64,000 nt of DNA from Corallium rubrum (lineage: Eukaryota > Cnidaria > Anthozoa > Scleralcyonacea > Coralliidae), in assembly GCA_964035015.1 (NCBI GenBank), contig OZ036007.1, positions 3,587,968-3,651,967 on the forward strand, read 5' to 3'. Shown here in pieces: positions 14,131 through 62,938 of this stretch; position 1 is the first letter of the stretch; each line of letters begins with the position of its first letter. The notes beneath the pieces were generated by a model. That model was given only the letters and a program-made list of their open reading frames with translations, made no database searches and had not been told where the DNA came from. A program made the translations under genes and the position numbers.

Positions 14131-14560
14131 GAGAAGTTGCAGCAGCACAGAGAACCATATTTAACAACCGATGCGACTGCGAGAACCACGCAATGCCACT
14201 ACAAACGGAGCAGAAATCTGAACAAACGAATGAAGAGGATGAAGGTCACGAAGATGAAATTAACGACGCTTACCCGCTTTTGTTTAAACATTTAAAAAAA
14301 AGTTAATAATCCAAAACTTTGGAGAATACGACATACGAATACAAGAACGTTTACATAAGAAACAACTGTCAAAAGAAGAAGAAGAAACCAGAAGAAGAAG
14401 AAGAAACAAATTTCCAAGAACCACTATTCACAGAGGTTCTAATTTTTTTAACGCACTGACGACCGACAGATTCACTTTGCTTTTGACGCTGAGTTCTCAA
14501 ACATTTTCTTGAATGTATCACACTCGAAATTTGTTTTCACAAAAAAAACATTAGAACATA

Positions 14561-21330: not shown

Positions 21331-23315
21331 AAATTAGCAACAGTGAGAAGTTGCAGCATCACAGAGAACCATATTTAACAACCGATGCGACTGCGAGAAC
21401 CACGCAATGCTACTACAAACGGAGCAGAAATCTGAACAAACGAATGAAGAGGATGAAAGTCACAAAGATGAAAATAACGAAGCTTACCCGCTTTTGTTTA
21501 AACATTTAAAAAAAAGTTAATAATCCAAAACTTTGGAGAATACGACAACAAGAACGTTTACATAACAAACAACTGTCAAAAGAAGAAGAAGAAACCAGAA
21601 GAAGAAGAAACAAATTTCCAAGAACCACTATTCACAGAGGTTCTAATTTTTTTAACGCACTGACGACCGACAGATTCACTTTGCTTTTGACGCTGAGTTC
21701 TCAAACATTTTCTTGAATGTATCACACTCGAAATTTGTTTTCACAAAAAAACATTTAGAACATAAAGGCTGGTTCTCACTTGTCGCAAGAATTGGAATCA
21801 TTTCTATTTCGAAAACGCATCCCAGAAGTTACGACATGTGTGAACACTGAAAAACACAGACGATCGGGGACAGGAGAAATCCCCAATTCTTACGATTCGT
21901 ACAAGTCACAACAAGTGTGAACATGGCTGTCACAAGAATCAGGGATAGAACTGTCCCCGATTCTTACGACAAGTGAGAACTAGGCTTAACTATGAAAGGT
22001 TACTTTCAAATAGTAATACTTTCAATACAGACAATAGTATCTGTCCGTATTAATTCTGATCTTGAATATCTTTGAAAAATACTATTTTTTGAGTGTCGGT
22101 TATCTTGTGTGATATGGGAGCTCTGTGTCAAACGCAAAGTGGAAATGATTTAACAGACCGACGAAAAAGGATTCTGCTCCACAATCGACAAGAAAGTGTC
22201 GAGTTGTTTGTGGACCGTATGTTTAAAACATCTGTAACTCGGACAGGCATTGTAAACTTTAAAGTTGTGAAATTACATGGTTTCAGTTTAAAAATTGTTG
22301 TGTTTGTTTTGTTACCTAGTTCTGAATGCTTATAACTTATATGGATACGAAAATTTCCAGTTGAACTTGTGTATGGAATTGCTATTTCTGAAAATGTTTA
22401 CACTATTGCAAAACGCATGCTATCAGGCCGAATATCAGGTTTGTTAAAAAAATAATGACCGATCTTCACTAAAGCTGGACTTTTTCGCAACCCTGTTTTA
22501 CATGAAGCGGATTGAGTGTTCAAGTCAAATCTGCCATGTTGTTTCTCCTTGTTGTGTTTACAAAGATTTGCGTTTTACGAAGATTGAAAGTCTTTGGTCT
22601 GACCGAAACGAATGGCAGTGCAGTGGATTGACTTGAGATTCAAGCAAGGATGGACTTGAATGTTACCAATCTGATTCATGTAAACACGGTCTGACTTGAA
22701 AATGACTTGATACGCATGAGTGAAGTTGGTGATGTGCTAAATGGCAGGTTTTATGAAAGTTATCACCAACATTATTTCAAAACACAGTCAATCTACAAAA
22801 ATTCTGCAGGGCATTTTGGTTTGGTCTCTAGATTCAAATCGACTGGGTTCCCAATCTGTTATTACCTCTGGTAACTAGACCCAGTTTTTTTTTCTTATGG
22901 TCAAAAGGCAAAAAAAGCCATGACGAAGATATATTACAATTTTGATAGGGAAAGTCTAAATATTGTAAATACGTAAACTCCCCTATGTCTATATTGGAGT
23001 GAGGGAGGCCTTGGTAATTAATACTGATCAAGTACATCCACTGCTATTTCAAGATCTGATAATCTCGGGCCAGATAGCAGCTGAGGTGAATGAATTAGGT
23101 GAAGAAAATGTTGCAGATGTCAATTGGTATAGCCACACCACCTTTGATGAACTGGGAAAAGGGTAGCTTGCAAAATGTAGAATTCAAAAGATTTCTCTGG
23201 AAAAGAAATGAAATCCTGACAGAAAATGCCATGGATACCAAAATCAATAAGCAAGTTTGACAGCCAAACTCGTTCTATCCAAATATTTAACTCTGGGTTA
23301 ACTCTAACAGTTAGT

Positions 23316-28350: not shown

Positions 28351-28444
28351 AATTAGCAACAGTGAGAAGTTGCAGCAGCACAGAGAACCATATTTAACAA
28401 CCGATGCGACTGCGAGAACCACGCAATGTAGTGCATGAGCCAGG

Positions 28445-29261
28445 TATGGTTGTCGGTACCACGCAGGGGGACAAAGGAAGGTATACTTTTTTAGAGAGAT
28501 TTTTACCTGCGGGTAAAGATTATATGTGATAGCAATTGATATTGCACAGCATTTCATCTATTTTAGGGGGGGGGGGGGAGTCCAGGAGTGGTAGGTAGAA
28601 AATTGGCATAAACCGCCAATTAAAACTTTAAAACTTTCTTCAAACGTTTACTTTAATTTACATCATTTTAACCATATGAAATTGATTAAGAAAAATGATG
28701 ATCTTGCAATATTTTATACAAACAGTTTTCAAACTGTATTTTAGCAAGCTTGAGCCGTCAGTATTTACCGCTGACCAACATGGCGACTGTGAAGTGTTTG
28801 TTTTTGATTTTCTTGAGGTAAGATAGATTTTTTTATTAAATGTTTGTTGAACTTCTGTTATCAGACAATATTAGTCAATATGAAAGGTGAATGAACACTT
28901 TCCGTAACTTTTTTAAACATATAATTGATAAATATAAACGTTTTCAGTCGAAAATACGTCTTTAGAATGACTGTATGTTTTCAATATGGCGGCCGAATCA
29001 CATGTTTGTCTAATTTCGGTGTATTTGCTAGAATTTTTTGATTGACTATTCAAAACATTGCTACAGAGGCTATCTAAAACTGCTCCCAAAGTACTTAAGA
29101 TACTATTTTCTTAAAAAACTCATATACTAAGCTAAAATACAGTGGCCAAACTTGCAATATATACGCACGACACCAATAGTTAACAGTACCATCTAGTAAA
29201 AATAAATGTGTTTTTTCCTTTTCCCAAAAATATAGATATTTACAATGATCACCAGCCAGGT
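28445..29261 (+). promoter_or_regulatory. 5' region of the transposon upstream of the transposase ATG
   Basis: It contains a run of 13 G (about 28565-28577) and two YY1-like CAACATGGCGAC / CAATATGGCGGC words (about 28776 and 28982). ATGGCGACTG at about 28780 opens a 12-codon frame that ends at a good donor (TTGAG then gtaaga), which could be a short first exon, but its phase does not join cleanly to the large exon at the acceptors I tested. It is therefore more likely untranslated leader. Confidence 0.4.
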
Positions 29262-32008
29262 ATGGATAGCTTTTGTATTATACACAATAAGGCTGTAAAG
29301 ATTGACCAAGATGACCGGCTTATAAGCCCCCGAAGTTACGAGTCATGGTTAACTTTATTCGAAGCTGCTAAAGTACGAAATTTTGAGCCAGTCCTTGAAC
29401 TAGCAAAGACTCTAAATGAAAACGAGGTCCCATCCATAGCATATCACCGGCAGTGCAGAAGCAGGTTCACTTTAAAAAGGGATTTACAATCGCTAAGGCA
29501 AGTCACTGGAGGTGTAAAGGAAAATAATAATGAGGATGAAGTAGCTCGCCCAAAGAAAAGAAACACATCTTCAAGTAATTGTGTTGAGAAATGTATCTTC
29601 TGCAGTAAAGACAAGTATGTACGGTCTCTAAATTCACGGGAAAAGCTTGTAAAAGCTGCACCGCTAAGGGTTGACAAGACGTTGCGAGATACAGCAGTCA
29701 AAAAATGCGATGAAAAGATTTTGGCAGTTACCAGCAGGGACATTGTTGCTGCTCAGGCGCATTACCACAGATCATGTTACTGGGAATACACACGGCCTAC
29801 AAAAACCTCACAAGCAAGTGCAAGTTTTGATGAAGAGATGGATGCTGAGTATGATGCCTTTAGCGATCTGTTCGAGTATATCAGAGCAGTGGTGTTAGAT
29901 AAGCAGAAAGTTGTTTCGATGACCGACCTGGCAAAAGAGTTAGAGTTATCTGTTCAGTCAAAACGAGAAGGAAAGCTAAAGGAGTCCTCAAAAAAACACA
30001 TAAGGAGGAAAATAGAAGCAGAGTTTGGATCCACCTTGGAGATCTTTCAGAACGATAAAGGAAAACTTTTGGTAATGGCAGCCAACCTCAGTCTTAGAGA
30101 AACAGTCCAAAGCAAAGTGGCTTTGGAGAATGAAATTGAGACCGTGAAGCTAAAGACCAATGACATGCAAAGTGTGGTTGATCAGTGTGCCTTGTATATC
30201 CGAAGATCTGTATTGGATGCGAAATGGAACTCATCCTGGCCTATCCATCCATCTGATTTAACTGCAGACCACTTCCAAGTACCTGATTGCCTAAACCGGT
30301 TCCTTAAAGGAGTACTAGCAGGCGACCCTGGAATCAATAGCTCCTCTCAACGACTTGAGACTCTGGTGAAGTCATTCAGCCAGGATATCATCTACGCAAC
30401 GACATCTGGCCGGACAAAACCACCGAAACAAATTCTTTTGGCATATGGTGTCAAAACCCTTACAGGAAATGTAGAGCTCATTCAGATGCTGAATAGATTT
30501 GGCCATGGTGTGTCTTATTCTCAGTTAGAAGAAAACGATACAGCTTTGTGTTTGCAAAAAATGGCGTCCAACTTAAATCAAAGCCCGATTCTTCCAGAAG
30601 CTATTAAACCTAACGTGTTTACGAACTTAGCATGGGACAACATTGACCGATTAGAAGAAACTCTAACTGGCGAAGGAACGACCCATCGGGTAAATGGGAT
30701 AGCAATCCAGCCAAGGGTGTATGGTCCACACCTCCCCCAAGCCGCGCTTCCTGTAATTCCAAAGCGTAAACAGAGAAGCATCACACAGGAAGTCCGACCG
30801 CTCCAAACATACATATCAGGAGAACGAGTGGGCCCCCCGCCACTGGCAGTTATAGATAATGATGGTCAACAGCAACAGGAAGCAAAGATGGCAGCAAGGA
30901 AGAATCTCATTTGGTTGCTTGCGCGTAAGGCTGACTGTAACACCGACAAGCAGCAAATTCCAGGCTGGACTGGCTTTAATATTAAGGCGCGTATCCAAGA
31001 GCCTGTTACGCAAGACGTGGTGGGTTACCTGCCAACGATCAATGCTCCTGCAACTCACCTAAGCACCGTTAACGAAATATTGCGTCAGTCCGAAGAAATC
31101 AGGAAGACGCTTAATCTCAAGAAGATCGTGGTTGTCATGGATCAAGCATTGTATGCAAAAGCAGCAGAAGTCGCCTGGAAGAATCAAGATGATTATGGAT
31201 CTGTTCTTCTAAGATTAGGGGCATTCCATACTATCTGCAACATACTTTCCATCATTGGAAAACGTTTTCAAGATGCTGGTTTGCGTGATATTTGCATTGA
31301 GTCGGGAATAATTGCTGAAGGATCTGTATCAAGCGTTCTTGATGGTAAAATGCACAACCGAGCCGTCAGAGTCCATAAGTGCATATACGAAGCTCTGATG
31401 CGTCTGGTATGGCAGCAATTCCTTTCCTGGGTAACGAGTATTCATCCTAACAAGATAGCGAGTGTGCGTACAGTACAAGATAGTGTCAACGAGATGGCTG
31501 ATAGGTTTACTCCGGCACAGCACGACGCGATGATGCAAAGTGAAACTTTGGCAGATGTGCATGACTTATGGAATCAGTTTATACTTTACCTCCGCTATGA
31601 GAATGGTGATTTGTCTGCATTCTGGATGTCTTATATCCAAGTCGTTGAAGATGTGCTTCTAGGACTGATCCGAGCGTCCCGAGAAGGTAACTGGCAGCTT
31701 CATCTTCATGCTGTTCGTCAGATGATCCCCTGGTGCTTCGCTTATGATAAGGTCAACTATGCAAGGTACCTACCAGTGTACTATGCACAAATGATGAATC
31801 TGCCTACCGACCACCCTGATGTGCATCGCGAGTTCATGAATGGACACTTCTCTGTTCAACTAGGAAAGAAAAATCCCTTTGGCCGTTTACCAGTTGACCA
31901 AACAACAGAGGTTACAGTCAATAAAGACACTAAAACGACCGGAGGCGTGACTAAGTTCAGCTTGAAGACAGGCGCTGTAAACAGATTCTACATGACGGCT
32001 GAATACAG
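29262..32008 (+). CDS. Academ-like transposase, exon 1 (N-terminal Cys/His modules and core)
   Basis: The open frame extends up to a GTG at 29208, but the first ATG is 29262. From that ATG the spliced protein is 1524 residues; this exon supplies residues 1-915 and two bases of codon 916. N-terminal features are two Cys/His modules, each ending in YHRxC: C5...YHRQC at 61-65 and C-x2-C (111-114)...YHRSC at 168-172. Mid-protein landmarks are AWDNID near 457-462, VVMDQ near 624-628 and DQTTE at 879-883. The acidic residues D459, D627 and E883 are candidates for a DDE-type catalytic set; this is inference. Related proteins, unnamed but multi-copy, are widespread in invertebrate genomes by my recollection. 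The exon ends at CAG|gtgttt. No frameshift or internal stop is visible, unusual for a resident element and suggesting recent activity. Confidence 0.8.
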
Positions 32009-32163
32009 GTGTTTTATTATTATGCACAATCTTATAAAAATTCATAAAGACCTTTACAGCAGAAATAGAGTGCAATAAAATAGAAATAAACTGTCTATAA
32101 TATAAGTATATTTGTCTTCTTTATATACCTTGATCTTACCAGTAACTTTCAAAATCTTTCCAG
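32009..32163 (+). other. Predicted 155-bp intron in the transposase gene
   Basis: The donor is CAG|gtgttt and the acceptor is aaatctttccag|G. Removing it joins the two large frames in phase (2747 + 1828 = 4575 nt, 1525 codons including stop) and gives the junction AEYRCSFLGQLRD. The second frame's apparent start at 32201 is a GTG inside an already open frame, so it is not a separate gene. Confidence 0.75.
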
Positions 32164-33991
32164 GTGTTCTTTTCTAGGTCAGCTGAGAGATATTGTTCAA
32201 GTGAGGCGACCCTCTTTTCATCATGATGAGTTGCAAACATCAACGATCATTAAGGATGAGAAGGCCGTAGTAATCGTTGAGAATCTTATTCAAAGCTGGA
32301 ATAACCCATTTTCCGAAAGACAAGATCTGATCAGTATATCAACAGCGAAAGAAGCTCCTGCAGAGGTATCGCACGATTTGATGCAAGCTTACGATGTTGG
32401 TGAGAAGGCGTACCAGCAATTCAAGGAGGAAAGGCTGACAAATAATCCGCCGAAGGCAAAGTTTCATGACCCACTAACACAGAAGAAACTTAAAACGTTT
32501 TCATCGCTCACGAAAAAGAAAACGATCAGCATCCAAGGGAGAAGCACTATTCTAAAAGCTGACAGAAGTCTCTTTGGCAGAATGATGATCATTGGTCAAA
32601 GTCGGAAGATTGAGGTGAGAGAATTACTGCACTATAGTCTGGGTCCTTTGCCTTGGTCATTGGCCACACCAGAAGGGTTCCCCAGGAAGACAAACAAGGC
32701 AGCTTTGGCCACGTATCTTCAGAAAGATGTCCAGCTGGCGGACAGGATACCACCAAATTCAGCAACTATAGTAGATGGAATGAGTCTTGTACAAAAGTTG
32801 AATGTTGGCAGCAACCAAACAACATTTGGGCATGTCGCATCTTCCCTTCTATCCATGGTTCTCCACGCGGGCTCACAAAGTAGCCGAATAGATGTGGTGT
32901 TTGATGTGTATAGAGAGAACTCCATCAAGAATGCAGAAAGAACCATCCGTGGAGAAGAACAAGGAGTCCAATTCGCAAATATAACCGCTTCACAACTTAT
33001 ACGGCAGTGGAGAAAGTTTCTTAGTCAATTAAACAACAAGACCAACCTGATACGATTTTTGGTTACGGAGTGGAAAAATCGGCAGTACACCGAAAGACTT
33101 CATGGAAAGGTCATGTACGCCACATGTGATAATCGCTGCTGGAAGATTACAGAAGAAGACAGCGTGGAAGTACCCGAGTTATCTAGCTGCCAGGAAGAGG
33201 CCGACACTCGACTCTTGCTTCATGCTCCGCATGCTTCACAAGAAGGATATGAAGCAGTTGTCATCAATTCTGAGGACACCGATGTTTTCATATTACTAAC
33301 TGCTTTCTCAAACTCCATTGATGCCAGCCTTTTCCAGAAATGTGGTTCTCAAACGCGAACGAAGCTGATAGATATCGACAAGATCGCAACAGCTCTCGGA
33401 CAAAGTCTGTGCAGAGCTATTATCGGACTGCATTCATTTACAGGATGTGACACGGTGAGTGCGTTTGCTGGCAAAGGTAAAATCAAAGCCTTGAAGATGG
33501 CGAAAGCCGACGAGCATGCTAGGAGAGCATTTAGCATGCTGGGCCAGACATGGGATCTACCAGCTGAGCTCTTTGTTCAGATAGAAAAGATCACCTGTGC
33601 ACTGTATACGCCTGGAGCAAACACAAGTAATGTGAACGATGCGAGGTACAACCTGTTCTGTGCAAAAAACGGAGAGATAGAATCCCATCAACTACCCCCA
33701 TGTCAGGACTGTCTCAAGAAACATGTTTTGCGCACTAAGTATCAAGCTTGTATTTGGAAACGAAGCCTAGAGCGAAACCCAGCAATCCCAAGTCCTGTTG
33801 GCATGGGCTGGAAGTTGGAAAACGAAAGTCTCGTTGTTGACTGGATGGATGGAAGACCTGCCCCAGACACTGTTCTGGCACTTCTGGCATGTAAATGCAA
33901 AAGATCCTGTAGCCTTCCTACCTGTGTGTGTTTAGTTAATGGTTTGAAATGTACAGATATCTGCACATTGAAGGACTGCGTTAACCAGTAG
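32164..33991 (+). CDS. Academ-like transposase, exon 2 (XPG/FEN1-like nuclease and CXC-like Cys8 finger)
   Basis: This exon supplies residues 916-1524. It holds the ordered acidic motifs of XPG/FEN1-family nucleases: VDGMSLVQKL (D1120), VVFDVY followed by a basic helix (D1164), EEADTR (E1261, D1263), SEDTDV (D1287, D1289) and GLHSFTGCDT (D1345) followed by GKGK, the helix-hairpin-helix position. All metal-binding positions appear filled. The last 33 residues hold eight cysteines in C-x-C-x3-C-x4-C-x-C-x6-C-x3-C-x4-C spacing (C1492-C1521), resembling a CXC/Tesmin-type finger. A TAG at 33989 ends the frame, but 26 further in-frame codons follow, very acidic, to a second TAG at 34070. The nuclease likely nicks DNA during transposition; this is inferred from the family. 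Confidence 0.8.
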
Positions 33992-34798
33992 CAAACTGAA
34001 GATGACGTTAACATGGAAGAATTAGATAGTGAAGACGAGGCAGACGACGACGAGGCAGAAGAAAACGATTAGCGACATTACGTAAGCAAGACGTTGGCTG
34101 CACGTTGCCAACGTAGCCTACGTATACCGGATTAATATGAGTTTCATAGTGTTTATGTCTACTATTTAATACCTAGGGATATGTCGTCAACGTTTATCAT
34201 GACATGATAGATTTTGGTTAAACTAATGAAAATATGTATACCCAGAGCACGATGTTAATAGTATTTCTTAAAAGGGACTGGGCCCGAGTTTGAGAGAATA
34301 GTATAAAAGCGATCTATGACAATGAAACTAGATAAATATTTTGTTATATTGTTTAACTAACGTATTAAGCTGAAGTTGAGAGACGAAATATTCACAATAA
34401 ATAATGAATTTTTCGAGGGTAAAATGTTTGTCAGCTCTTATTGTAATATTACAGACGTTTAAATCGTGTGACTGATCACGTGATTGCTACAATTGACATT
34501 TTATGCATGGCTATAAGTGATTTGAGGGTATGCCAGATATAACAGTTTTATTTTGTCATGTTTATCTAATATTTCAAGCGTTCAAACTAATTTTATGGAA
34601 CAAATAAGTCCAAAACGATGCCACGCAATAATTTCTGTGGCCCACAGAGGAGGGGTACGTGAACAGTGCTCTTATACCTTAACGCTGTGAGATACACACT
34701 GCTATCAACCGAAAATATAAACTAGGGATATTGATCTTTATATTGAGGGGTATTAGCCTTTGTCCCCCTGAGTGGTACCAATACGCCTTTTATGGGGT
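33992..34798 (+). other. 3' region of the transposon
   Basis: It begins with the acidic in-frame extension (33992-34069) and continues as AT-rich non-coding sequence with several AATAAA-type polyadenylation words (for example near 34400). The subterminal block at 34757-34779 is the inverse of 28455-28477. Confidence 0.6.
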
Positions 34799-36709
34799 CC
34801 TGGCTCATGCACTAATGCTACTACAAACGGAGCAGAAATCTGAACAAACAAATGAAGAGGATGAAGGTCAGGAAGATGAAAATAACGAAGCTTACCCGCT
34901 TTTGTTTAACATTTTTAAAAAAAAGTTAATAATCCAAAACTTTGGAGAATACGACAACAAGAACGTCTACATAACAAACAACTGTCAAAAGAAGAAGAAG
35001 AAGCAAGCAAGCAAGAAGAAGAAGAAATAAATTTCCAAGAGCCACTATTCATAGAGGTTCTAATTTTTAACGCACTGACGACGGACAGATTCACTTTGCT
35101 TTTGATGCTGAGTTCTCAAACATTTTCTTGAATGTATCACACTCGAAATTTGTTTTCACAAAGAAACATTTAGAACAAAAAGGCTGGTTCTCACTTGTTG
35201 CAAGAATCGGAATCATTTCTATTTCGAAAACGCATCCCAGAAGTTACGACATGTGTGAACACTGAAAAACACAGACGATCGGAGACAGGAGAAATCCCCA
35301 ATTCTTACGTTTCGTACAAGTCACAACAAGTGTGAACATGGCTGTCGTAAGAATCGGGGATAGAACTGTCCCCGATTCATACGACAAGGGAGAACTAGGC
35401 TTAACTATGAAAGGTTACTTTCAAATAGTAATACTTTCAATACAGACAATAGTATCTGTCCGTATTAATTCTGATCTTGAATATCTTTGAAAAATACTAT
35501 TTTTTGAGTGTCGGTTATCTTGTGTGATATGGGAGCTCTGTGTGAAACGCAAAGTGGAAATGATTTAACAGACCGACCAAAAAGGATTCTGCTCCACAAT
35601 CGACAAGAAAGTGTCGAGTTGTTTGTGGACCGTATGTTTTCAACATTTGTAACTCGGACAGGCATCGTAAACTTTAAAGTTGTGAAATTACATGGTTTCA
35701 GTTTAAAAGTTGTTGTGTTTTTTAAGTTACCCAGTTCTGAATGCTTATAACTTATATGGATACGAAAATTTTCAGTTGAATTTGTGTATGGAATTGCTAT
35801 TTCTGAAAATGTTTACACTACTGCAAAACGCATGCTATCAGGCCGAATATCAGGTTTGTTAAAAAATGGCCGATCTTCACTAAAGCTGGACTTTTTCGCA
35901 CCCCTGTTTACATGAAGCGGATTGAGTGTTCAAGTCAAATCTGCCATGTTTCTCCTTGTTGTGTTTACATGAAGAAGATTGAAAGTCTTTGGTCTGACCG
36001 AAACGAATGGCAGTGGATTGGATTGACTTGGGATTCAAGCAAGGATCGACTTGAATGTCACCAATCTGATTCATGTAAACACGGTCTGACTTGAAAATGA
36101 CTTGATACGCATGAGTGAAGTTGGTGATGTGCTAAATGGCAGGTTTTATGAAAGTTCTCACCAACATTGTTTCAAAACACAGTCAATCTACAAAAATTCT
36201 GCAGGGCATTTTGGTCTGGTCGCTAGATTCAAATCGACTGGGTTCCCAATCTGTTATCACCTCTGGTAACTAGACCCAGTTTCTTTTCTTATGGTCAAAA
36301 GGCAAAAAAAGCCATGAAGAAGATATATTACAATTTTGATAGGGAAAGTCTAAATATTGTAAATATGTAAACTCCCCTAGGTCTATATTGGAGTGAGGGA
36401 GGCCTTGGTAATTAATACTGATCAAGTATATCCACTGCTATTTCAAGATCTGATAATCTTGGGCCAGATGGCAGCTGAGGGGAATGAATTAGGTGAAGAA
36501 AATGTTGCAGATGTCAATTGGTATAGCCACACCACCTTTGATGAACTGGGAAAAGGGTAGCTTGCAAAATGTAGAATTCAAAAGATTTCTCTGGAAAAGA
36601 AATGAAATCCTTACAGAAAATGCCATGGATACCAAAATCAATAAACAAGTTTGAAAGTCAAACTCGTTCTATCCAAAGATTTAATTCTTGGTAAACTCTA
36701 ACAGTTAGT

Positions 36710-42290: not shown

Positions 42291-44204
42291 GTTGCAGCAG
42301 CACAGAGAGCCATACTTAACAACCGATGCGACAGCGATAACCACGCAATGCTACAACAAACGAAGCAGAAATCTGAACAAACAAATGAAGAGGATGAAGG
42401 TCAGGAAGATGAAAATAACGAAGCTTACCCGCTTTTGTTTAAACATTAAAAAAAAAGTTAATAATCCAAAACTTTGGAGAATACGACAACAAGAACATCT
42501 ACATAACAAACAACTGTCAAAAGAAGAAGATTAAGTAAGAAGAAGAAGAAGAAGAAACAAATTTCCAAGAACCACTATTCATAGAGGTTCTAATTTTTAA
42601 CGCACTGACGACCGTCAGATTCACTTTGCTTTTGACGCTGAGTTCTCAAACATTTTCTTGAATGTATCACACTCGAAATTTGTTTTCACAAAAAAACATT
42701 TAGAACATTATGGCTGGTTCTCACTTGTCGCAAGAATTGGAATCATTTCTATTTCGAAAACGCATCCCAGAAGTTACGACGTGTGTGAACACTGAAAAAC
42801 ACAGACGATCGGAGACAGGAGAAATCCCCAATTCTTACGATTCGTACAAGTCACAACAAGTGTGAACATGGCTGTCACAAGAATCGGGGATAGAACTGTC
42901 CCCAATTCATACGACAAGTGAGAACTAGGCTTAACTATGAAAGGTTACTTTCAAATAGTAATACTTTCAATAGTATCTGTCCGTAGTAATTCTGATCTTG
43001 AATATCTTTGAAAAATACTATTTTTTGAGTGTCGGTTATCTTGTGTGATATGGGAGCTCTGTGTCAAACGCAAAGTGGAAATGATTTAAGAGACCGACCA
43101 AAAAGGATTCTGCTCCACAATCGACAAGAAAGTGTCGAGTTGTTTGTGGACCGTATGTTTAAAACATTTGTGACTCGGACAGGCATTGTAAACTTCAAAC
43201 TTGTGAAATTACATGGTTTCAGTTTAAAAATTGTTGTGTTTGTTTTGTTACCTAGTTCTGAATGCTTATAACTTATATGGATACGAAAATTTTCAGTTGA
43301 ATTTGTGTATGGAATTGCTATTTCTGAAAATATTTACACTATTGCAAAACGCATGCTATCAGGGCGAATATCAGGTTTGTTAAAAAAATAATGACCGATC
43401 TTCACTAAAGCTGGACTTTTTCGCAACCCTGTTTTACATGAAGCGGATTGAGTGTTCAAGTCAAATCTGCCATGTTGTTTCTCCTTCTTGTGTTTACAAA
43501 GATTTGCGTTTTACGAAGATTGAAAGTCTTTGGTCTGATCGAAACGAATGGCAGTGGATTGGATTGACTTGAGATTCAAGCAAGGATGTCACCAATCTGA
43601 TTCATGTAAACACGGTCTGACTTGAAAATGACTTGATACGCATGAGTGAAGTTGGTGATGTGCTAAATGGCAGGTTTTATGAAAGTTATCACCAACATTG
43701 TTTCAAAACACAGTCAATCTACAAAGATTCTGCAGGGCATTTTGGTCTGGTCTCTAGATTCAAATCGACTGGGTTCCCAATCTGTTATTACCTCTGTAAC
43801 TAGACCCAGTTTGTTTTTTTCTTATGGCCAAAAAAGCCATGAAGAAGATATATTACAATTTTGATAGGGAAAGTCTAAATATTGTAAAGATGTAAACTCC
43901 CCTAGGTCTATATTGAAGTGAGGGAGGCCTTGCTGTAATTAATACTGATCAAGTATATCCACTGCTATTTCAAGATCTGCTAATCTTGGGAAGAAAATGA
44001 TGCAGATGTCAATTGGTATAGCCACACCACCTTTGATGAACTGGGAAAAGGGTAGCTTGCAAAATGTAGAATTCAAGAGATTTCTCTGGAAAAGAAATGA
44101 AATCCTGACAGAAAATGCCATGGATACCAAAATCAATAAGCAAGTTTGAAAGCCAAACTCGTTCTATCCAAAGATTTAACTCTGGGTTAACTCTAACAGT
44201 TAGT

Positions 44205-45839: not shown

Positions 45840-47720
45840 TAAACATTGTAATGGATTTTCAAGAATTAGGAGTTCTTTCAATATTTTTGCTAATTTTCCA
45901 TGATTTTTACAAAGGTTTTGGGGATTTTTCAAGAATTTTATGGATTTTCCAAAACATTTAATGTTTGTTTTTTTGAGAATTGTGATTGAAGGATTTTTTG
46001 GCAACATATACTAGATTTTTGCAGTGATTTGCCTCTCAGTTTAGTATTAACAAAAACTAATGCAGCTGATGGTGTAAACCGCCAGTGTGTTAGCAATTAA
46101 GAGCTACACAGATCTCAACGGAACCACTCGTTAACAGAAGACCATTGATAAGAGAGCAAAGAGTTCCAACTGGTTTAAAACAGAAAAAAGGGAAAATGTA
46201 TGAAATTGACATTCGTGCTGAATTACCAGTGAAAAACAAGAAATCTACAACAAGAAAACATCGAACTTGCCCACCATAACAAAAGCTATGCATCTAAAAT
46301 GCAAACATACACATGTCGATATATATATACGCACCTGATTACCTGGGCGATGTCACACTTATTGGCTGGCAAAAAAGCTGTTCAATGGAGCACCGATCCA
46401 AAGGCAAAACAAACAAACAATTACATTTCAACAGCTCAAGATGACACTCTGATTGAGTTCGCGATATTGACAATTTTACTATTGACATTCAACTAACTGA
46501 ATTTAAAGGCTCTGGCAAAGACTTGGGAAAAAAAAGATGTTTGCTGCATTTGATCACAAAAGAAATGCAGGATTTTTTAACATCGATGATAACGGTACAA
46601 CTAAACGCAAAACTAAGAAAAACGGACGACAAATGATGATGATGAAAGATGATGATGACGAATGATGCCTTCCTCAATGGCAAGTTACTGCCATAGGATA
46701 ACAGATATAAACCAAGTCAACCGGTTTTTTGGCAAGAGCTGTGAATCCACAGACTCAGCAAGTGTTGGCAAAACAAGAGAACAAACGCTAACAATAACTA
46801 TACTTATAACTAAAAAACGAGAGAGAGTAGCCGAGAGAGAGCAGTAGTACTCAGAAATGCCATCAACAGAATGGTATTAATTGACAGACAACATACTTTA
46901 AAAGGCTGTAACTTTGTTTTTGATGCTATCATTCCAAACAGCTTAATCTTAGATGTTCAACCATACTTTAAATATTGCCACTTTATTGCTTCTACGGATT
47001 TCAATCATTTTCTCGATCTTTTCTTGACGGGAAAATGTGGAGTATTAAAATAGAAATACAAAGCTGAACATGGAATGCATGCACATCTAAAACAAAGTGA
47101 ACATGTCTTATTAAATCAACGGACTAGAACACCAACAGACGATACACTATGTGTGCTTTTTATGGATGGGTTATCACAGATATACAAGAACCAACTGTGA
47201 ATTGTATGATATTGTTTTTCTACACCTAACATACTTTGTATAATTAAGCAAGTTGTCAAATTACACATTTTCCACAAAAATGTCTGTTTGTTCGTTGTCA
47301 AGTACACATAACCATTCTCTAGTTTTTGAACTTGTTTTTATTTATTTAAAATAAAAACTGTTGCGTGCGATTATCTAGTTTTAGTATGAATACACAGGTG
47401 ATTATAGAAAATTGATCGCGCTGATTGGTCGAGCTATTTCGGATTAATTCCCGATAATCACGGTATATATATATATATATATATATAAATGATATTGGGC
47501 ATTTCACTCGAGGGCCTGTGTAGTTGCATTTTTCGCAACTGCTCCCGGTTTGGTCTTAAAATGTATATATTCTACACTCGAATTTTCCTTCACCCTAAAT
47601 CCTTAGAACATGCTATGTAATCGAGTGAAATGCCCAATATCATTTATAATATACCCAATTCTCTCCTGGCATTACCACCTTATTATATATACAGAACTCG
47701 CGATCAAGCTCTCGGCAACG

Positions 47721-47791
47721 GCCTCCGTGGCTCAGTGGTCAGAGCATTGCACTAGAATCGCAAGGTCGTGGGTTCAATTCCTGCCGGAGGG
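47721..47791 (+). repeat. tRNA-like head of SINE copy 1
   Basis: The acceptor arms GCCTCCG and CGGAGGG pair at six of seven positions. An A-box-like TGGCTCAGTGG and B-box GGTTCAATTCC are present. The anticodon position would read AGA, but the anticodon stem has mismatches. It is a SINE promoter rather than a working tRNA gene. Confidence 0.75.
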
Positions 47792-47997
47792 CCTGTGTAG
47801 TTGCATTTTTCGCAACTGCTCCCGGTTTGGTCTTAAAATGTATATATTCTACACTCGAATTTTCCTTCACCCTAAATCCTTAGAACATGCTATGTAATCG
47901 AGTGAAATGCCCAATATCATTTATAATATACCCAATTCTCTCCTGGCATTACCACCTTATTATATATACAGAACTCGCGATCAAGCTCTCGGCAACG

Positions 47998-48068
47998 GCC
48001 TCCGTGGCTCAGTGGTCAGAGCATTGCACTAGAATCGCAAGGTCGTGGGTTCAATTCCTGCCGGAGGG
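47998..48068 (+). repeat. tRNA-like head of SINE copy 2
   Basis: It appears identical to the head 277 bp upstream, so the tandem duplication is recent. Confidence 0.75.
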
Positions 48069-48163
48069 CCTGTGTAGTTGCATTTTTCGCAACTGCTCCC
48101 GGTTTGGTCTTAAAATGTATATATTCTACACTCGAATTTTCCTTCACCCTAAATCCTTAGAAC

Positions 48164-48165
<2 letters not shown>

Positions 48166-50420: not shown

Positions 50421-50909
50421 TAGCAACAGTGAGAAGTTGCAGCAGCACAGAGAACCATATTTAACAACGGATGCGACTGCGAGAACCACGCAATGCTACT
50501 ACAAACGGGGCAGAAATCTGAACAAACGAATGAAGAGGATGAAGATGACGAAGCTGAAATAACGAAGCTTACCCGCTTTTGTTTAAACATTTAAAAAAAA
50601 GTTGATCCAAAACTTTGAAGAAGACGGCAACAAGAACGTCTACATAACAAACAACTGTCAAAAGAAGGAGAAGAAACGAGAAGAAGAAGAAGAAATACAT
50701 TTCCAAGAACCACTATTCACAGAGGTTCTAATTTTTAACGCACTGACGACCGACAGATTCACTTCGCTTTTGACGCTTGAGTTCTCAAATATTTTTCACA
50801 AAATCTTGATCTTGTTGGATGTATGACTATCACACTCGAAATTTGTTTTCACAAAAAAAAACTTTACAAGGTTACTTTCACTGCAGCTGTCGTCTGTCGT
50901 GGCAATAGG

Positions 50910-53320: not shown

Positions 53321-53722
53321 CAGAAGGAGTTGCGCAGTTCAGACGTGTTTTCAACCAAAATTTGCATGTAAATATATGTGTTATAGCTATAGAGTGACCG
53401 TGGACAGTTTTATAAACCGTTTCCTTATGATGTTTGTGTGTTTTGTGGCGTTATGAAAACCGTACGAGACCTTTTCACCGCTTAGAAACGCTCATGAAAC
53501 ACTTCAGTCTTAAGCAGACAGGTCGAAGAAAGAAGAGAAGAAGAGGTGACGAGGTGTGCAATATTTCCGTGTCGATATTGTTATATCAAAAACCTCTTTT
53601 GTTATTGTTATTGTTGCTGTGAGGAGTGGATGGCTTTGTTTTTCATACTTTTTTCTCATTACAGCGGACATATATAGTCCGTTTCGTTACGAGGCAGACC
53701 AACTCGAGAAGAGCTCTACGAA

Positions 53723-54866
53723 ATGCCTAAGAAAGAACAGACGGTAAGATGGCCGTGTAAGTATTGTACGTACGACAATTTTCCGTCTGCCATCAAGTGT
53801 AATTTGTGTAATACGTCGAGAGACGGACATCGGAGTTCAAACGGTCGAAAGGAGGACGAGAGAAGCCAAGCGAGCGGCAAAGATGTCAACCGACGTTCGC
53901 CTGACACTTCGGGGGAGAAACTGATATGTCTTGCTCCTGAGGATTCGTCCGAGTTACTAGAAGGCCGATGGTGTTGTGTTTCTTGTACCTATCTCAACTG
54001 GGAGAACTCCCTGAAGTGTGTAATGTGTTCTAGTGCGAGGCCTAACGATGTTATACCTCAATCTGAAAAATCCATCAGTGAAATGCCAGCTAGGAATAGT
54101 AGTGAAATTTCTGGGAAAAATGATGAGCTGGCAGATTTGACTGTGAATAAAAACGAAAGGAACAAGTCGATTTCTAAGAATAAGCCAAAATGGACATGTC
54201 CAAAATGTACTTTTGAAAACTGGGCAAAGTCCAAGAAATGTGCTCTGTGTTTGATACCGAAACCAAAAAGTGATGACTCAGTTATTTTGAAAACAAAAAA
54301 TTCTCAGAATGAGTTGAACTTGAAAAAGAGTGGACGACAACAATTGAGAGTCACTACAAATAAATCTAATGCTTCGAGTTTACAACCAATTAATACGAAA
54401 GAAGATGAGGAACAGTTAATTTATGGACTTGCAGCAACTAAAATATCAAATATCTCACAGCAGTATGAAATCAAGAGTAATCTGCGGGAAACTGACTGGA
54501 TGTGGCTTAATGCTTGTATAGGAGTTGTTGAAGGAGAGTTAATGTCAGTGAAAAGGTTTTTATCAACTGGAGGTAGCCCAACACGGCAGTTAACAGCAGA
54601 TGAAATTTTGGCCCTTAATCGTCCAGGTGTATTTGAATTGAGTGATACATTAGTTCATTTGGGAATCAGGTATCATCGAGAAGATTTACTTGCTATAATT
54701 GTACCTCCAGAAGTTTCGAGAAAGACTTTTAAAAGAATGCCATGTCATGTTAGCCCAGATTTGGCTGCGAGTGTGAGAAAGCAAGCAGCACAAGGACTGA
54801 GGCAAAGGAAAGGAGATTGGCCATGTTATTTTTTTACTGACTTGGTGACATTCACTTTACCTGGAG
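53723..54866 (+). CDS. ZRANB1: ZRANB1/TRABID deubiquitinase, exon 1 (three NZF fingers, AnkUBD)
   Basis: ZRANB1 (TRABID) is an OTU-family deubiquitinase that cleaves K29-, K33- and K63-linked ubiquitin chains and is known from Wnt and stress signalling. This exon encodes residues 1-381. The three NZF fingers have Cys at 12/15/26/29, 85/88/99/102 and 159/162/173/176, each in W-x-C-x2-C-T-(Y/F)-x-N context. The ankyrin-type ubiquitin-binding domain follows from about 250 to 375 (starting near DWMWLNACIGVVEG). The start ATG gives MPKKEQTVRWPCKYC, closely like the family's N-terminus. A splice acceptor-like ctcattacag at about 53664 suggests a 5' UTR intron. The exon ends CCTGGAG|gtaaat in phase 1; the frame that runs on to 54904 is intron. 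Confidence 0.95.
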
Positions 54867-56041
54867 GTAAATATATATACACAAGTCAAAATATAGTTAA
54901 ATAAATTATATTAACTAATATACATAGGGGGATTTCCCATTCAATTTTGAGGTCAAATTATCAAATTAAAATTGGATGATGTGATGTCAAATTTAAAAAA
55001 AAATGCTGTTCATCAAACTTGAACTCATAATAGTGGCACCCATGAAAATATGGGAATAAAAAGTGCGTATGACTAGAAAATTCATATCAGTTTAATTTAA
55101 TGATAATTGTATGTTGAAAAACACTTAAAAGTAATGAAATATGACTTTTACACACCTTTCAGATCTTATCTCATTTTTGAGGAATTAGTACTGTATTGTA
55201 ATTTGAGCTATGTAGAGCTGCTCCCAATTAATCGATTATTTTTTCGTTTTTTTCCACAATCGATTATACTTAACAATAATTGGATCATCTATAACAACCC
55301 TGCACAGCATGATGCCGGAATGATTTAATCTTGTTTTGTTAAACAGATAAGTAATGACTGATTACGAACATGCCTTAGTTAAACCAATTAGTCATAAACT
55401 GATTGGCCAATAGTATCTGAGTATCATTTAGGAGTGTCAGGTGTAAACTAAACATCCTCTCTGTCTTGTCATGTCTCTTGTGTGAACTGTGAGAGCGCGA
55501 GAAAGTGTACAATCTATAACCGTGATTAAACAGTGATTTAAAACATGAATAGTGACTGAATTGTTGGGTGACAACAAGGGAGGCAATCCCCAACAAATTT
55601 AGTAACAACTTTATAAAAGCACCCCCTTCCTTTGAATGGACAAACCACCATGGACATGTTGTATTTAATTCATGACATATTTAATCAATACGATTAATCG
55701 ATTGCTGACAACGATTAATCGATTATGAAAATGAACTGATGGGAGCAGCTCTAGAGCTATGACATCATTTAAGTTGTGCATTGGAAAATCAGCCATACCT
55801 GTAAATAAATGTATCTTTGGATTTGCATGTATAACTATTTTTTCAAACTACAAATGAGGCTAGATCTGGATTAATCTAGTCTACAAAATTTGGTTCACTT
55901 CAATCTAATTAATCAGAGCACATTGTTGCAAAATATCTTGAATATTTCATAATATATCTCTAGGATAATTTATTATTAACACAAGATCAGTATAATTACT
56001 GTATGGTAATTATTTATTTGCTTATTTCTTATTTTAAAAAG
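54867..56041 (+). other. ZRANB1 intron 1
   Basis: It starts gtaaat and ends ttattttaaaaag. It contains a 541-bp hAT-like MITE and otherwise AT-rich sequence with no recognised feature. Confidence 0.8.
55213..55753. mobile_element. hAT-like MITE in ZRANB1 intron 1
   Basis: The ends are TAGAGCTGCTCCCA and TGGGAGCAGCTCTA. It is flanked by the 8-bp duplication GAGCTATG (55205-55212 and 55754-55761). The subterminal inverted blocks ATTAATCGATTA recur on both sides. Confidence 0.9.
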
Positions 56042-56269: not shown

Positions 56270-56710
56270 AAGCTATAATCAAAGGAGAACGCAAGTCATC
56301 ACAAGTTAGCTTACTAGTAAGTAAGTAACACCTTTATTTCCAGAGGGTAAACACTAAATAGTGCAAAGCACTAATAAACTTATGGCCCCTTACGGTGACT
56401 TGCGATGCCACTAGTCAAACGTTGGCACAAGTCGTCACAAGTTCTGCACTTCCACTAGTTCCCACACCTTTTCGCTAGTTATCATGGCAGTTTCTATGGT
56501 GATGGAGCACGAAAGACTTGCATCGACTTGTGTTTTGTGTTCAAACGTTTTGCAAGCCCTCGCAGGTTGAAGAAAACTTGCGATGAAATTTGAACAAGAT
56601 CAAATTAGTCGCAAGCTAACACAAGTCATCGCAAGCTGGTAATCAAATGAGACAGAAGCAAGCACAAGCTAAAACTTGTGATGACTTGCGTTCTCGTTTG
56701 ATTAGGGCTT
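56270..56710. mobile_element. MITE in ZRANB1 intron 2
   Basis: The inverted ends of about 40 bp (AAGCTATAATCAAAGGAGAACG... against the inverse of CGTTCTCGTTTGATTAGGGCTT) share the core AACGCAAGTCATCACAAGTT. Repeated CTTGCGATGACTTG-like words fill the interior. The target duplication is uncertain. Confidence 0.7.
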
Positions 56711-58104: not shown

Positions 58105-58345
58105 AGAATTAGATTTCTGCCTGGTTCATCCATTGCGATAATTTTAACTGATAGACTAGATTTTCCCAATATATCCAACAAGTGTTCCACCAGGTCCTTA
58201 TCATTAAACATGTAGTATTCTCAAACATGTCTCTCCTTTCAGTTACTGCATTGTGGTTTTATTAATATTTATATTATCCACATAAATACTTAATAGTAAT
58301 ATGTAATAGTCTGACAAAATCGTGAGAGACATGATGTAAAGGATT

Positions 58346-58622
58346 ATGAATTTCACTTGCTCACAATTTGGAAAATATCATTTCACATTTCTCGACTTCC
58401 GAAAAGCCTTCGATTTAATCGATCACAACCGACTTTTGCAAAACTTTAACGACATTGGTGTACGACCGGGTTTGATTGGATGGTTTGCATCGTATTTACA
58501 AGGACGATCACGGCTGACCACATTTCATGGTATAAAATCTGAACGAATGGAAATCAATGGGGGCATCCCTCAGGGTAGCAAAGTAGGACCAGTCGCCTTT
58601 ATTATAAAAATTAATCAACTTC
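58346..58622 (+). pseudogene. Non-LTR retrotransposon reverse transcriptase fragment 1 (palm motifs A and B)
   Basis: The frame contains FLDFRKAFDLIDH (motif A region) and GIPQGSKVGP (motif B), typical of CR1/Jockey-like reverse transcriptases. It is cut at 58622 by a hAT element and resumes at 59374. The upstream part of the element (endonuclease, ORF1) was not found, so it is 5'-truncated. Confidence 0.85.
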
Positions 58623-59365
58623 TAGGGATGAGCCGATAATCGGAAATTAATCGGTAGAAGCCGATAATCGGCAACTTTCAGGCAGATCGGTTATCGGCCG
58701 ATCACATCGACATATATCGGCATGTATCGGCGGTCCGATAAATATCATTCTGGCCTTTTTACTTGTGATATTTCCTTTTCTTTGTCAAGAAGAACGCCAA
58801 ACGTGAAGCAGTGCCCTTATCAGTGGTGGGCAACAAACAGAGCTTCGTATCCCAATATTTTTTGTATTGCTAAGCGATATCTTAGTGCACCTAGTAGTAG
58901 TGTTTATTCGGAACGACTTTTTAGCGAAGCGGGAAATATTCATTTAGTTGTGCACTGTTAAACTTTTATGAGCTAGATTCTGTAATTTATTGTATATTTT
59001 GCTAACTGTTAGCAGTTAGGCGAGTTCAAAATGTAATGTATTTAAAATACTATAATTTTCACTATTTTTGCTGTAAATAATGAATGTTATTTTACTTACG
59101 CCGTTAGTCATTTACCGGGATAGTTTTCCGAAATAAATTGATTACTAAATTGAGTAAATTCAATCCTCGACTATCGTAATGACATTTCTGTTACTGGTCC
59201 GTTAACTCTTGTTATGTTTTGCTAGCGTTTCGCCCCAATTTCGAGTGTTAGGAATTCCTGTTAACAAATATCGGTAACCACCTATAAATCGGCCGATCGG
59301 ATGGTAAATCGGATCGGAATTTATCGGATCGGTAAATTTGATTTTTCTCGATCGGCTCATGCCTA
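58623..59365 (+). mobile_element. hAT element remnant inserted in the reverse transcriptase frame
   Basis: The ends are TAGGGATGAGCCGATAATCG and CGATCGGCTCATGCCTA. It is flanked by the 8-bp duplication TCAACTTC (58615-58622 and 59366-59373). Subterminal regions are dense in ATCGG words. It contains a C-terminal hAT transposase fragment. This insertion is younger than the retrotransposon it splits. Confidence 0.9.
58790..58930 (+). pseudogene. hAT transposase C-terminal dimerisation (hATC) fragment
   Basis: The residues YPNIFCIAKRYLSAPSSS followed by VYSERLFSEAGNI match the hATC signature (P-x-L-x-x-x-A-x-x-Y-L, P-x-S-S, S-E-R-x-F-S-x-A-G). The rest of the transposase is missing, so it is an internally deleted, non-autonomous copy. 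Confidence 0.85.
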
Positions 59366-60674: not shown

Positions 60675-61490
60675 CCGGTGTCCCAGGAAGTCCGTCCCGC
60701 CGTAATATCGCCCCCCCCCCGGGGGGCGAATTTCCTAGGAATATCGCCCCCCCCCCCGGGGGCGAATTTCCTAGGAATATCGCCCCCCTTTAGGAATTTC
60801 GCCCTCCCCCTTTTAGTCGCAAAACATAAATCGCCCAAATTGGCAAACATTTATATTGCCAACAACACATGGAAGCCAGTCGAGATAAAACTACTACGGC
60901 AACGTGTTTGAACAATTCATTTCGGCAGTTAACCACCTCAGTTTCACTTTAAAATAAAATAAAATATAATATGAAAGTATAACAAACTAACCGATGAAAG
61001 GAATTTTTTTCTTCCGAAAGAAATTTTGGCAAAATACACTTTTGGCCGAAAGGACATTTCACCGAAAGAGCATTCCTTATTTCTGTGTGCCACGATGAGT
61101 CATCGTTGATACAAAGAACGTTTGCAAACGACGTCGGTTCCCAAGAGTAATTTTCACGTCGTCGTGACTCTGTTGACAACGTGAAAAAGCATTTTCACGT
61201 TGCATAGACAACGCGGAACCCGAGTCACTACAGAAGCCTTGGGAAAGTTTAACTTTACTTTCGCGACTAACATAGATTGAACAAGTTTTTCCTCAAGAAT
61301 TTAAGAACAGAATGAGTCCGTGCGATTATGAATGTATAAATCGAAATCGAGAAGGGGGGGGGGGCGAAATTCCTAAAGGGGGGCGATATTCCTAGGAAAT
61401 TCGTCCTCCGGGAGGGCGAGATTCCTAGGAAATTCCCCCCCCCCCCCCCCATGGGCAGGGGGGCGAATTTCCTGTGACACCGGTAAGCGG
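60675..61490. mobile_element. G/C-rich foldback element with tandem sub-repeats in its arms
   Basis: The left arm (60675-60820) starts CCGGTGTCCCAGGAA and the right arm (61340-61487) ends TTCCTGTGACACCGG. Each arm has 2-3 tandem copies of a ~40-bp unit made of a C- or G-homopolymer run and GAATTTCCTAGGAATATCG. The centre (60830-61330) is ordinary sequence with a short inverted pair (CGTTTGCAAACG, AATTTTCACG). Confidence 0.75.
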
Positions 61491-62844: not shown

Positions 62845-62938
62845 GCCCCCGGGCCTGTAGGTACCCCCGGGCCTGTAGGTACCCCCGGGCCTGTAGGTAC
62901 CCCCGGGCCTGTAGGTACCCCCGGGCCTGTAGGTACCC
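62845..62938. repeat. 18-bp minisatellite, five copies
   Basis: The unit GTAGGTACCCCCGGGCCT is repeated head to tail with no visible change, after a run of 12 G. It lies just inside the right inverted CAGGGTTCTGCCCA copy. Confidence 0.95.

Follow-up and report, generated by a model that had tools for sequence, protein, structure and literature searches.

Recent spread of an Academ-like transposon family with a candidate DDE core and an XPG-like region, known from a truncated copy in a tandem array and its genomic sisters

INTRODUCTION

The reason for which certain DNA transposons have a helicase or another nuclease fused or added to their transposase is still open. A reading of the sequence alone had described a near-intact Academ-like transposon in a stretch of Corallium rubrum DNA and had proposed it as a candidate for a currently or recently active family. 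We asked how complete this copy is, whether it has relatives that still spread, and how firmly its protein can be tied to the Academ superfamily. The window, i.e., the whole stretch analysed, has 64,000 nucleotides (G000:C28:3587968-3651967), and the genome searched was the 474-Mb assembly that contains it.

AcademX elements carry XPG, and a Cys8 zinc finger is among their features. PMC10045372, which speaks of a nuclease, gives target site duplications (TSDs) of 3 or 4 bp for AcademX and of 9 or 10 bp for AcademH, and relates them to the encoded nuclease or helicase. The sequence-only reading took only few Academ elements to be characterised, a view that is no longer current: PMC10294476 counts 100 curated Academ consensus elements in bivalves, and for corals PMC11370458 gives thousands of annotated Academ-1 copies. 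Activity in the superfamily has already been reported as well, since PMC8594854 counts one Academ-1 gain in mutation-accumulation lines of Daphnia magna.

RESULTS

Ends, target site and host array

The features of the element are collected in Table 1. The perfect 16-bp ends, the ATG duplication and the unoccupied site in other units of the array, all noted from the sequence beforehand, were borne out, the last in all four sister units that were detected. Only the two terminal inverted repeats (TIRs) matched the 16-mer in the window at up to 3 mismatches, where 0.21 matches were expected. The inner inverted blocks are a possible transposase-binding site, judging from their complementarity; the single-strand folds of both element ends were unremarkable. 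When the flanks were joined without the element, the resulting sequence could be aligned across each of the four sister units, ATG being present once. The longest duplicate flanking the window copy is AATG, so that this copy taken singly would allow a 4-bp TSD; that length was dropped, and the TSD was set at 3 bp, because 3 bp were exact in all ten full-length genomic copies and 4 bp in only three of them.

Table 1. Coordinates of the transposon copy, its parts and the corresponding unoccupied sites (positions in the window)
Feature	Position	Strand	Remarks
Whole transposon copy	28429-34814	+	6,386 bp; TIRs, TSD, empty sites in four sister units, nine further full-length genomic copies
Left TIR	28429-28444	+	16 bp, TAGTGCATGAGCCAGG
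Right TIR	34799-34814	-	16 bp, exact complement of TAGTGCATGAGCCAGG
Inner inverted block, left	28455-28477	+	23 nt; 96% complementary to 34757-34779
Inner inverted block, right	34757-34779	-	partner of 28455-28477
Left target duplication	28426-28428		ATG, 3 bp
Right target duplication	34815-34817		ATG, 3 bp
Unoccupied paralogous target site	14189-14199	+	one mismatch to CGCAATGCTAC
Unoccupied paralogous target site	21403-21413	+	CGCAATGCTAC, exact
Unoccupied paralogous target site	42344-42354	+	CGCAATGCTAC, exact
Unoccupied paralogous target site	50489-50499	+	CGCAATGCTAC, exact
Possible 5'-UTR intron	28818-29235	+	GTAAGA donor, pyrimidine-rich AG acceptor; predicted from the sequence
Coding exon 1	29262-32008	+	N-terminal Cys/His motifs and candidate DDE transposase region
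Cys/His motif (CIFC ... HYHRSC)	29592-29777	+	residues 111-172; aligned counterparts in two relatives
GT-AG intron	32009-32163	+	8 of 10 copies retain donor and acceptor, 2 have lost the acceptor by deletion
Coding exon 2 with stop	32164-33991	+	XPG-like nuclease region and CXC-like finger
XPG-like acidic positions	32771-33451	+	D1120, D1163, E1261, D1263, D1287, D1289, D1345
Cys8 finger resembling the CXC (Tesmin/TSO1) domain	33890-33979	+	residues 1492-1521; PF03638, E = 0.0017
Acidic codons 3' of the stop	33992-34069	+	26 in frame, 16 of 26 Asp/Glu; coding in sister copies

The host unit belongs to a tandem array whose units follow one another at about 7.2 to 8.3 kb. The array runs from 9386 to 51318; three 300-nt blocks are each present in five copies, 87 to 99% like its reference copy, and in one listed unit the longest open frame has 114 aa. 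By eye, the array copies resemble one another more closely in some stretches of the unit than in others, a pattern that gene conversion would leave. Over 1.2 kb, the right flank of the occupied unit differs by 4.0 to 4.7% from three sister units and by 21% from the fourth, whereas the window copy has 6 singletons in the gap-free columns of the ten aligned full-length copies (8 private states when gapped columns are included). The insertion is therefore most likely much younger than the duplications of the array.

Copies in the genome

We then searched the genome for further copies by their ends, as the sequence-only reading had proposed. At up to 1 mismatch, the 16-bp end gave 44 matches (25 of them exact) and its reversed control none. 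Ten exact end pairs, that of the window copy included, enclose full-length copies of 6,107 to 6,489 bp, with the TSDs ATG, TAG, CTA, TAA, TTT, TAA, ACA, TTA, TTA and AAA; one further exact pair encloses a deletion derivative of 811 bp with the TSD TAA. Two more copies, on C37 and C15, lack one end beside runs of N, and at C1:12037008-12038037 there is a 3' fragment, roughly 1 kb long and 97.5% alike.

The left 332 bases of the element, used as a query, found 13 places in the genome, all 92 to 100% identical, and the right 315 bases found 13 ends of the family and 16 other ends at 69 to 79%. Three other 3' ends, L086 and L087 on C23 and L079 on C8, are 72 to 77% like the last 115 bp of the family, and their termini are one base off its 16-mer. 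More distant relatives are numerous: at 28 to 46% protein identity there are at least 90 matches to exon 2 (70 of 418 candidates scored), and exon 1 has at least 69 matches (50 of 398 candidates scored). No old copies of the family itself were found in the genome searches with its ends, despite these many relatives, and the family is thus young; its youth may reflect a recent arrival or the loss of older copies. Six places of equal score and 35% identity (C1:38386080, C1:53677364, C8:29056428, C28:14904432, C37:308794 and C39:1080094, in genome coordinates) belong to a related family, possibly a second young Academ-like one.

The joined flanks of one of the ten copies, C46, matched their own two sides and 13 repeat relatives in this one assembly, and no allelic empty site. 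Three of the 13 relatives run across the junction at 79 to 81% and make up a second set of unoccupied paralogous sites. Beyond the genome, no relatives were confirmed in viral contigs, in bacterial and archaeal genomes, the latter searched with an 86-aa piece, or in phages, searched with the DNA of exon 2; in our judgement this says little, since those collections hold little eukaryotic DNA.

Subfamilies and broken forms

The ten full-length copies differ by 0.07 to 0.29% within subfamilies and by 0.7 to 1.3% between groups. Subfamily A comprises four copies (0.08 to 0.17% different), subfamily B the window copy and two others (0.07 to 0.25%), and subfamily C two copies (0.29%), while the tenth copy stands alone; shared sites agree with this division (26, 20 and 34 for A, B and C, respectively). 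Two A copies, one of them C46, are open over 1,550 codons and differ from each other by 0.14%, and each of the remaining two A copies carries a single 1-bp coding indel. The stop found at codon 1525 of the window copy is present throughout B, whose two other copies also have a common deletion over the intron acceptor. Subfamily C is marked by six 1-bp coding indels plus an in-frame 9-bp deletion, present in both its copies, and in the lone copy there are four coding deletions. The prospect that all copies would prove old and mutated was thus looked for and did not materialise: the ten differ by 0.07 to 1.31%, and two keep the whole frame.

The deleted form of B is found at two sites whose flanks differ, and so is the form of C; both were therefore copied after they broke. 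The broken forms were probably moved in trans by the transposase of full-length copies.

Gene structure and truncation of the window copy

After splicing, the open reading frame of the window copy has 1,524 codons and one terminal stop, so that the frame and the single intron described from the sequence both stand. The copy is not complete, however. The frame continues through 26 acidic codons to a stop at 34070-34072, and in seven of the ten copies a sense codon stands at the position of the window copy's stop; the window copy is therefore truncated at its C terminus relative to the family. The exon 2 frame has 660 aa in three sister copies and 633 in the window copy. A stop that is read through was also considered for the window copy and ranked below plain truncation, given the sense codon in the seven copies. 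An upstream ATG at 28780 was rejected, as by eye no obvious splice sites join it in frame to exon 1.

The splice model, in which the two exons make one protein, is supported by a relative at C8:30900305-30903712, in which, by coordinates and frame, both halves lie in one open frame of 1,638 aa.

Candidate DDE core in the N-terminal half

Exon 1 was aligned with five relatives drawn from its genome matches. D459, D462, D627, G653 and H656 are invariant in all six rows, and E883 is kept in the four of four rows that reach it. The conserved Asp/Asp/Glu set suggests a DDE transposase core, for which the profile searches run returned no matching profile. As the first half carries this set, the XPG-like part would probably be an accessory nuclease and not the transposase itself.

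XPG-like region

The sequence-only reading had credited the protein with all XPG metal-binding positions. Seven acidic positions are indeed present in an order that we take to be that of the FEN1 metal ligands, and they are conserved: in an alignment of exon 2 with eight relatives from the genome matches, the nearest 44% identical in the exon 2 part, the first six occur in all nine rows and D1345 in eight, the ninth row leaving the aligned frame just before it. The standard profiles do not recognise the region as XPG. Searches with Pfam, NCBIfam, PHROGs and single sequences against the PDB returned nothing or chance-level rows for XPG, and a profile search of the PDB with the region gave no match. 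Pfam XPG_I (PF00867) matched 43 places in the genome, and none of those listed falls within the ten copies. Many of the 43 are short and fall into near-equal groups; their number exceeds what we would expect of host repair genes, and they are perhaps another repeat family with an XPG domain.

To compare the region with FEN1, we used 30 archaeal sequences (53 loci fetched, 34 listed, 4 dropped for internal stops). The family alignment matched them in hhalign with E = 0.0025 and a score of 33.2, at a probability of only 11.7%, and the XPG-core alignment with E = 0.0042 and a score of 28.7, at a probability of only 8.1%. The controls were made for the core; 40 column-shuffled cores reached at most 27.5, and the reversed core reached 14.75. 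Two motifs fall in register with FEN1, DTDVF with DYDSLLF and TGCDT with VGTDY.

The tests on the single sequence failed. With the profile of the 30 archaeal FEN1 sequences (hmmsearch), the window region came second, behind one of 200 shuffles; single-sequence hhalign gave 22.06, where the best of 60 shuffles scored 22.11; and a five-block XPG score lay below the shuffle mean, being reached by 666 of 1,000 shuffles and exceeded by the reversed region. A five-motif pattern, written after the protein had been seen, occurred in none of 100,000 shuffles; as written it misses all 30 archaeal FEN1 sequences (a relaxed form finds 30 of 30) and is weak evidence for that reason. These failures limit the XPG claim, for which we regard the family alignment as the better test. 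The profile search proposed for the exons thus came out negative with Pfam XPG_I and gave a weak match in register between the family profile and FEN1. On motif conservation and this weak match, the region is a candidate nuclease.

C-terminal Cys8 finger

The Cys8 finger reported from the sequence was confirmed, with all eight cysteines in place, and it further resembles the CXC domain, a DNA-binding domain, with its cysteine spacing over nearly the whole PF03638 profile. The score of 19.1 bits is below the curated cut-off of 23.5 and denotes a resemblance only. PF03638 matched two of four tails of the family and none of six shuffles. The canonical CXC domain has nine cysteines against the eight here. 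The literature search found no paper on a CXC domain in Academ, which is not proof of absence.

Selection on the protein

Coding differences between copies were compared with the 24.9% expected to be synonymous. The window copy and the open copy C46 differ by 24 synonymous and 26 non-synonymous changes (P = 0.0003), and C46 and the lone copy by 19 and 18 (P = 0.0005). The corresponding counts were 22 and 25 for the window copy and the other open copy, 14 and 19 for the window copy and the lone copy, and 20 and 43 for C46 and a broken C copy. Within subfamilies, the counts were too small or showed no excess (e.g., 2/5, 0/4 and 3/7). In our reading, the protein was under selection while the main subfamilies diverged.

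DISCUSSION

Relation to known systems

By its features, i.e., TIRs, a 3-bp TSD, an XPG-like region recognised by motif and the lack of a detectable helicase, the window element best fits AcademX, with which its Cys8 finger also agrees. Its XPG-like part differs from AcademX in being too divergent for Pfam XPG_I, and the family stands at some distance from its relatives, of which the nearest aligned has 44% identity in the exon 2 part. A Pfam search of both exons for families at E ≤ 1 gave none and hence no helicase, which is modest evidence because Pfam is also blind to the XPG-like region. AcademH, a sister lineage in the superfamily, is tied in the same passage of PMC10045372 to a helicase and the longer TSD, unlike the window family. 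With the FEN1/XPG nucleases, the region shares the seven acidic positions in the same order and a similar spacing, and it differs from them in escaping the Pfam models.

According to PMC9587614, KolobokE, KolobokD and KolobokP likewise pair a DDD/E transposase with a second nuclease, and their accessory nucleases have other folds. The varied 3-bp TSDs of the window family set it apart in a further respect. Kolobok targets TTAA, which does not fit them. On these comparisons, the window element appears to be a new family of the Academ kind and not a new kind of system.

Proposed mechanism and alternatives

Taken together, the results make it very probable that the window element belongs to a recently spread cut-and-paste family of the Academ type, as judged by features, whose broken sisters were apparently moved by working copies. 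With its N-terminal Cys/His motifs and its CXC-like finger, the spliced protein would bind the 16-bp ends and possibly also the inner inverted blocks. An RNase-H-like DDE core would then cut and join the 3' ends into a target staggered by 3 bp, and the fused XPG-like nuclease would trim or cut the other strand (its 5' end or a flap), a step that a DDE core does not in every case carry out by itself. This division of labour between DDE and XPG parts is inferred. More speculatively, and with rather less than even confidence, one may suppose that the family is a recent arrival that still moves and that probably came by horizontal transfer; that a DDE-XPG-CXC fusion from at least two full-length copies mobilises at least two broken forms besides its own copies; and that the XPG part makes the second-strand cut that DDE cores leave undone, in the way of TnsA in Tn7.

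The near-identical copies and the two full frames uphold the earlier suggestion of a recently or currently active family as far as recent spread is concerned; the copy on which it was made is truncated. The family may by now be extinct here, with every copy left by a short recent burst, the two open ones included, silent or non-functional. We give this somewhat less than an even chance: in eight of the ten full-length copies the frame is disrupted by a stop, frameshift or deletion, and only 13 left ends were found, but the two fully open copies are hardly diverged, and, under an assumed transition bias and assumed indel rates, the frame is expected to gain 3.3 to 4.8 disabling changes per 1% of neutral divergence. 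It is also conceivable, if doubtful, that the window copy itself is competent, its tail-removing stop being harmless or read through, and that subfamily B supplied the protein for its own movement. The protein is preserved as far as the Cys8 finger, and the B lineage spread after the stop arose, since all three of its closely similar copies carry it. The sense codon retained at that position in most copies speaks against this, as does the lost acceptor in the other two B copies, because of which they probably needed help in trans.

Two further alternatives concern the identity of the element and the means by which its broken forms multiplied. It seems improbable that the element falls outside Academ, in another superfamily, and has an unrelated acidic nuclease where XPG would be. 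No profile names Academ or XPG, but neither did any of the profiles run point to another superfamily, a best match to which had been envisaged as telling against the assignment. At 3 bp, the TSDs lie within what PMC10045372 gives for AcademX (3 or 4 bp) and far from its figure for AcademH (9 or 10 bp), and the order, conservation and FEN1 register of the XPG motifs argue in the same direction. Still harder to credit is that the several sites of the broken copies arose by segmental duplication and not by transposition in trans. Tandem duplication does occur in this genome, as the sister units around the window copy show; the paired broken copies, however, differ in the 20 bases compared on each side, one pair having the TSDs TAA and TTT and the other TTA at both sites with different neighbours.

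The family brings together what a cell assay needs to ask whether, and for which strand, the XPG part is necessary: near-identical copies of full length, a non-autonomous short derivative, ends and a target that are defined, and natural broken forms that continue to spread. The case also illustrates that an open reading frame read in a single window can lead one to take a truncated copy for a complete one, a matter that the other copies in the genome decide.

Other features of the window

An open frame at 53678-54904 encodes an ankyrin ubiquitin-binding domain (E = 2.5e-21) and three RanBP2-type zinc fingers, the domain set of ZRANB1/TRABID, and further likely exons were seen by eye near 56706 and 63044. 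At 47510-48165, a 277-bp unit is repeated in tandem 2.4 times with 100% identity between copies; two tRNA-Ser(AGA) genes accompany this repeat. Open frames at 58340-58958 resemble, by eye, a reverse transcriptase fragment and a hAT-type C terminus. Short tandem repeats lie at 60704-60788 (36 bp, 97% matches) and at 62846-62938 (18 bp, 100% matches).
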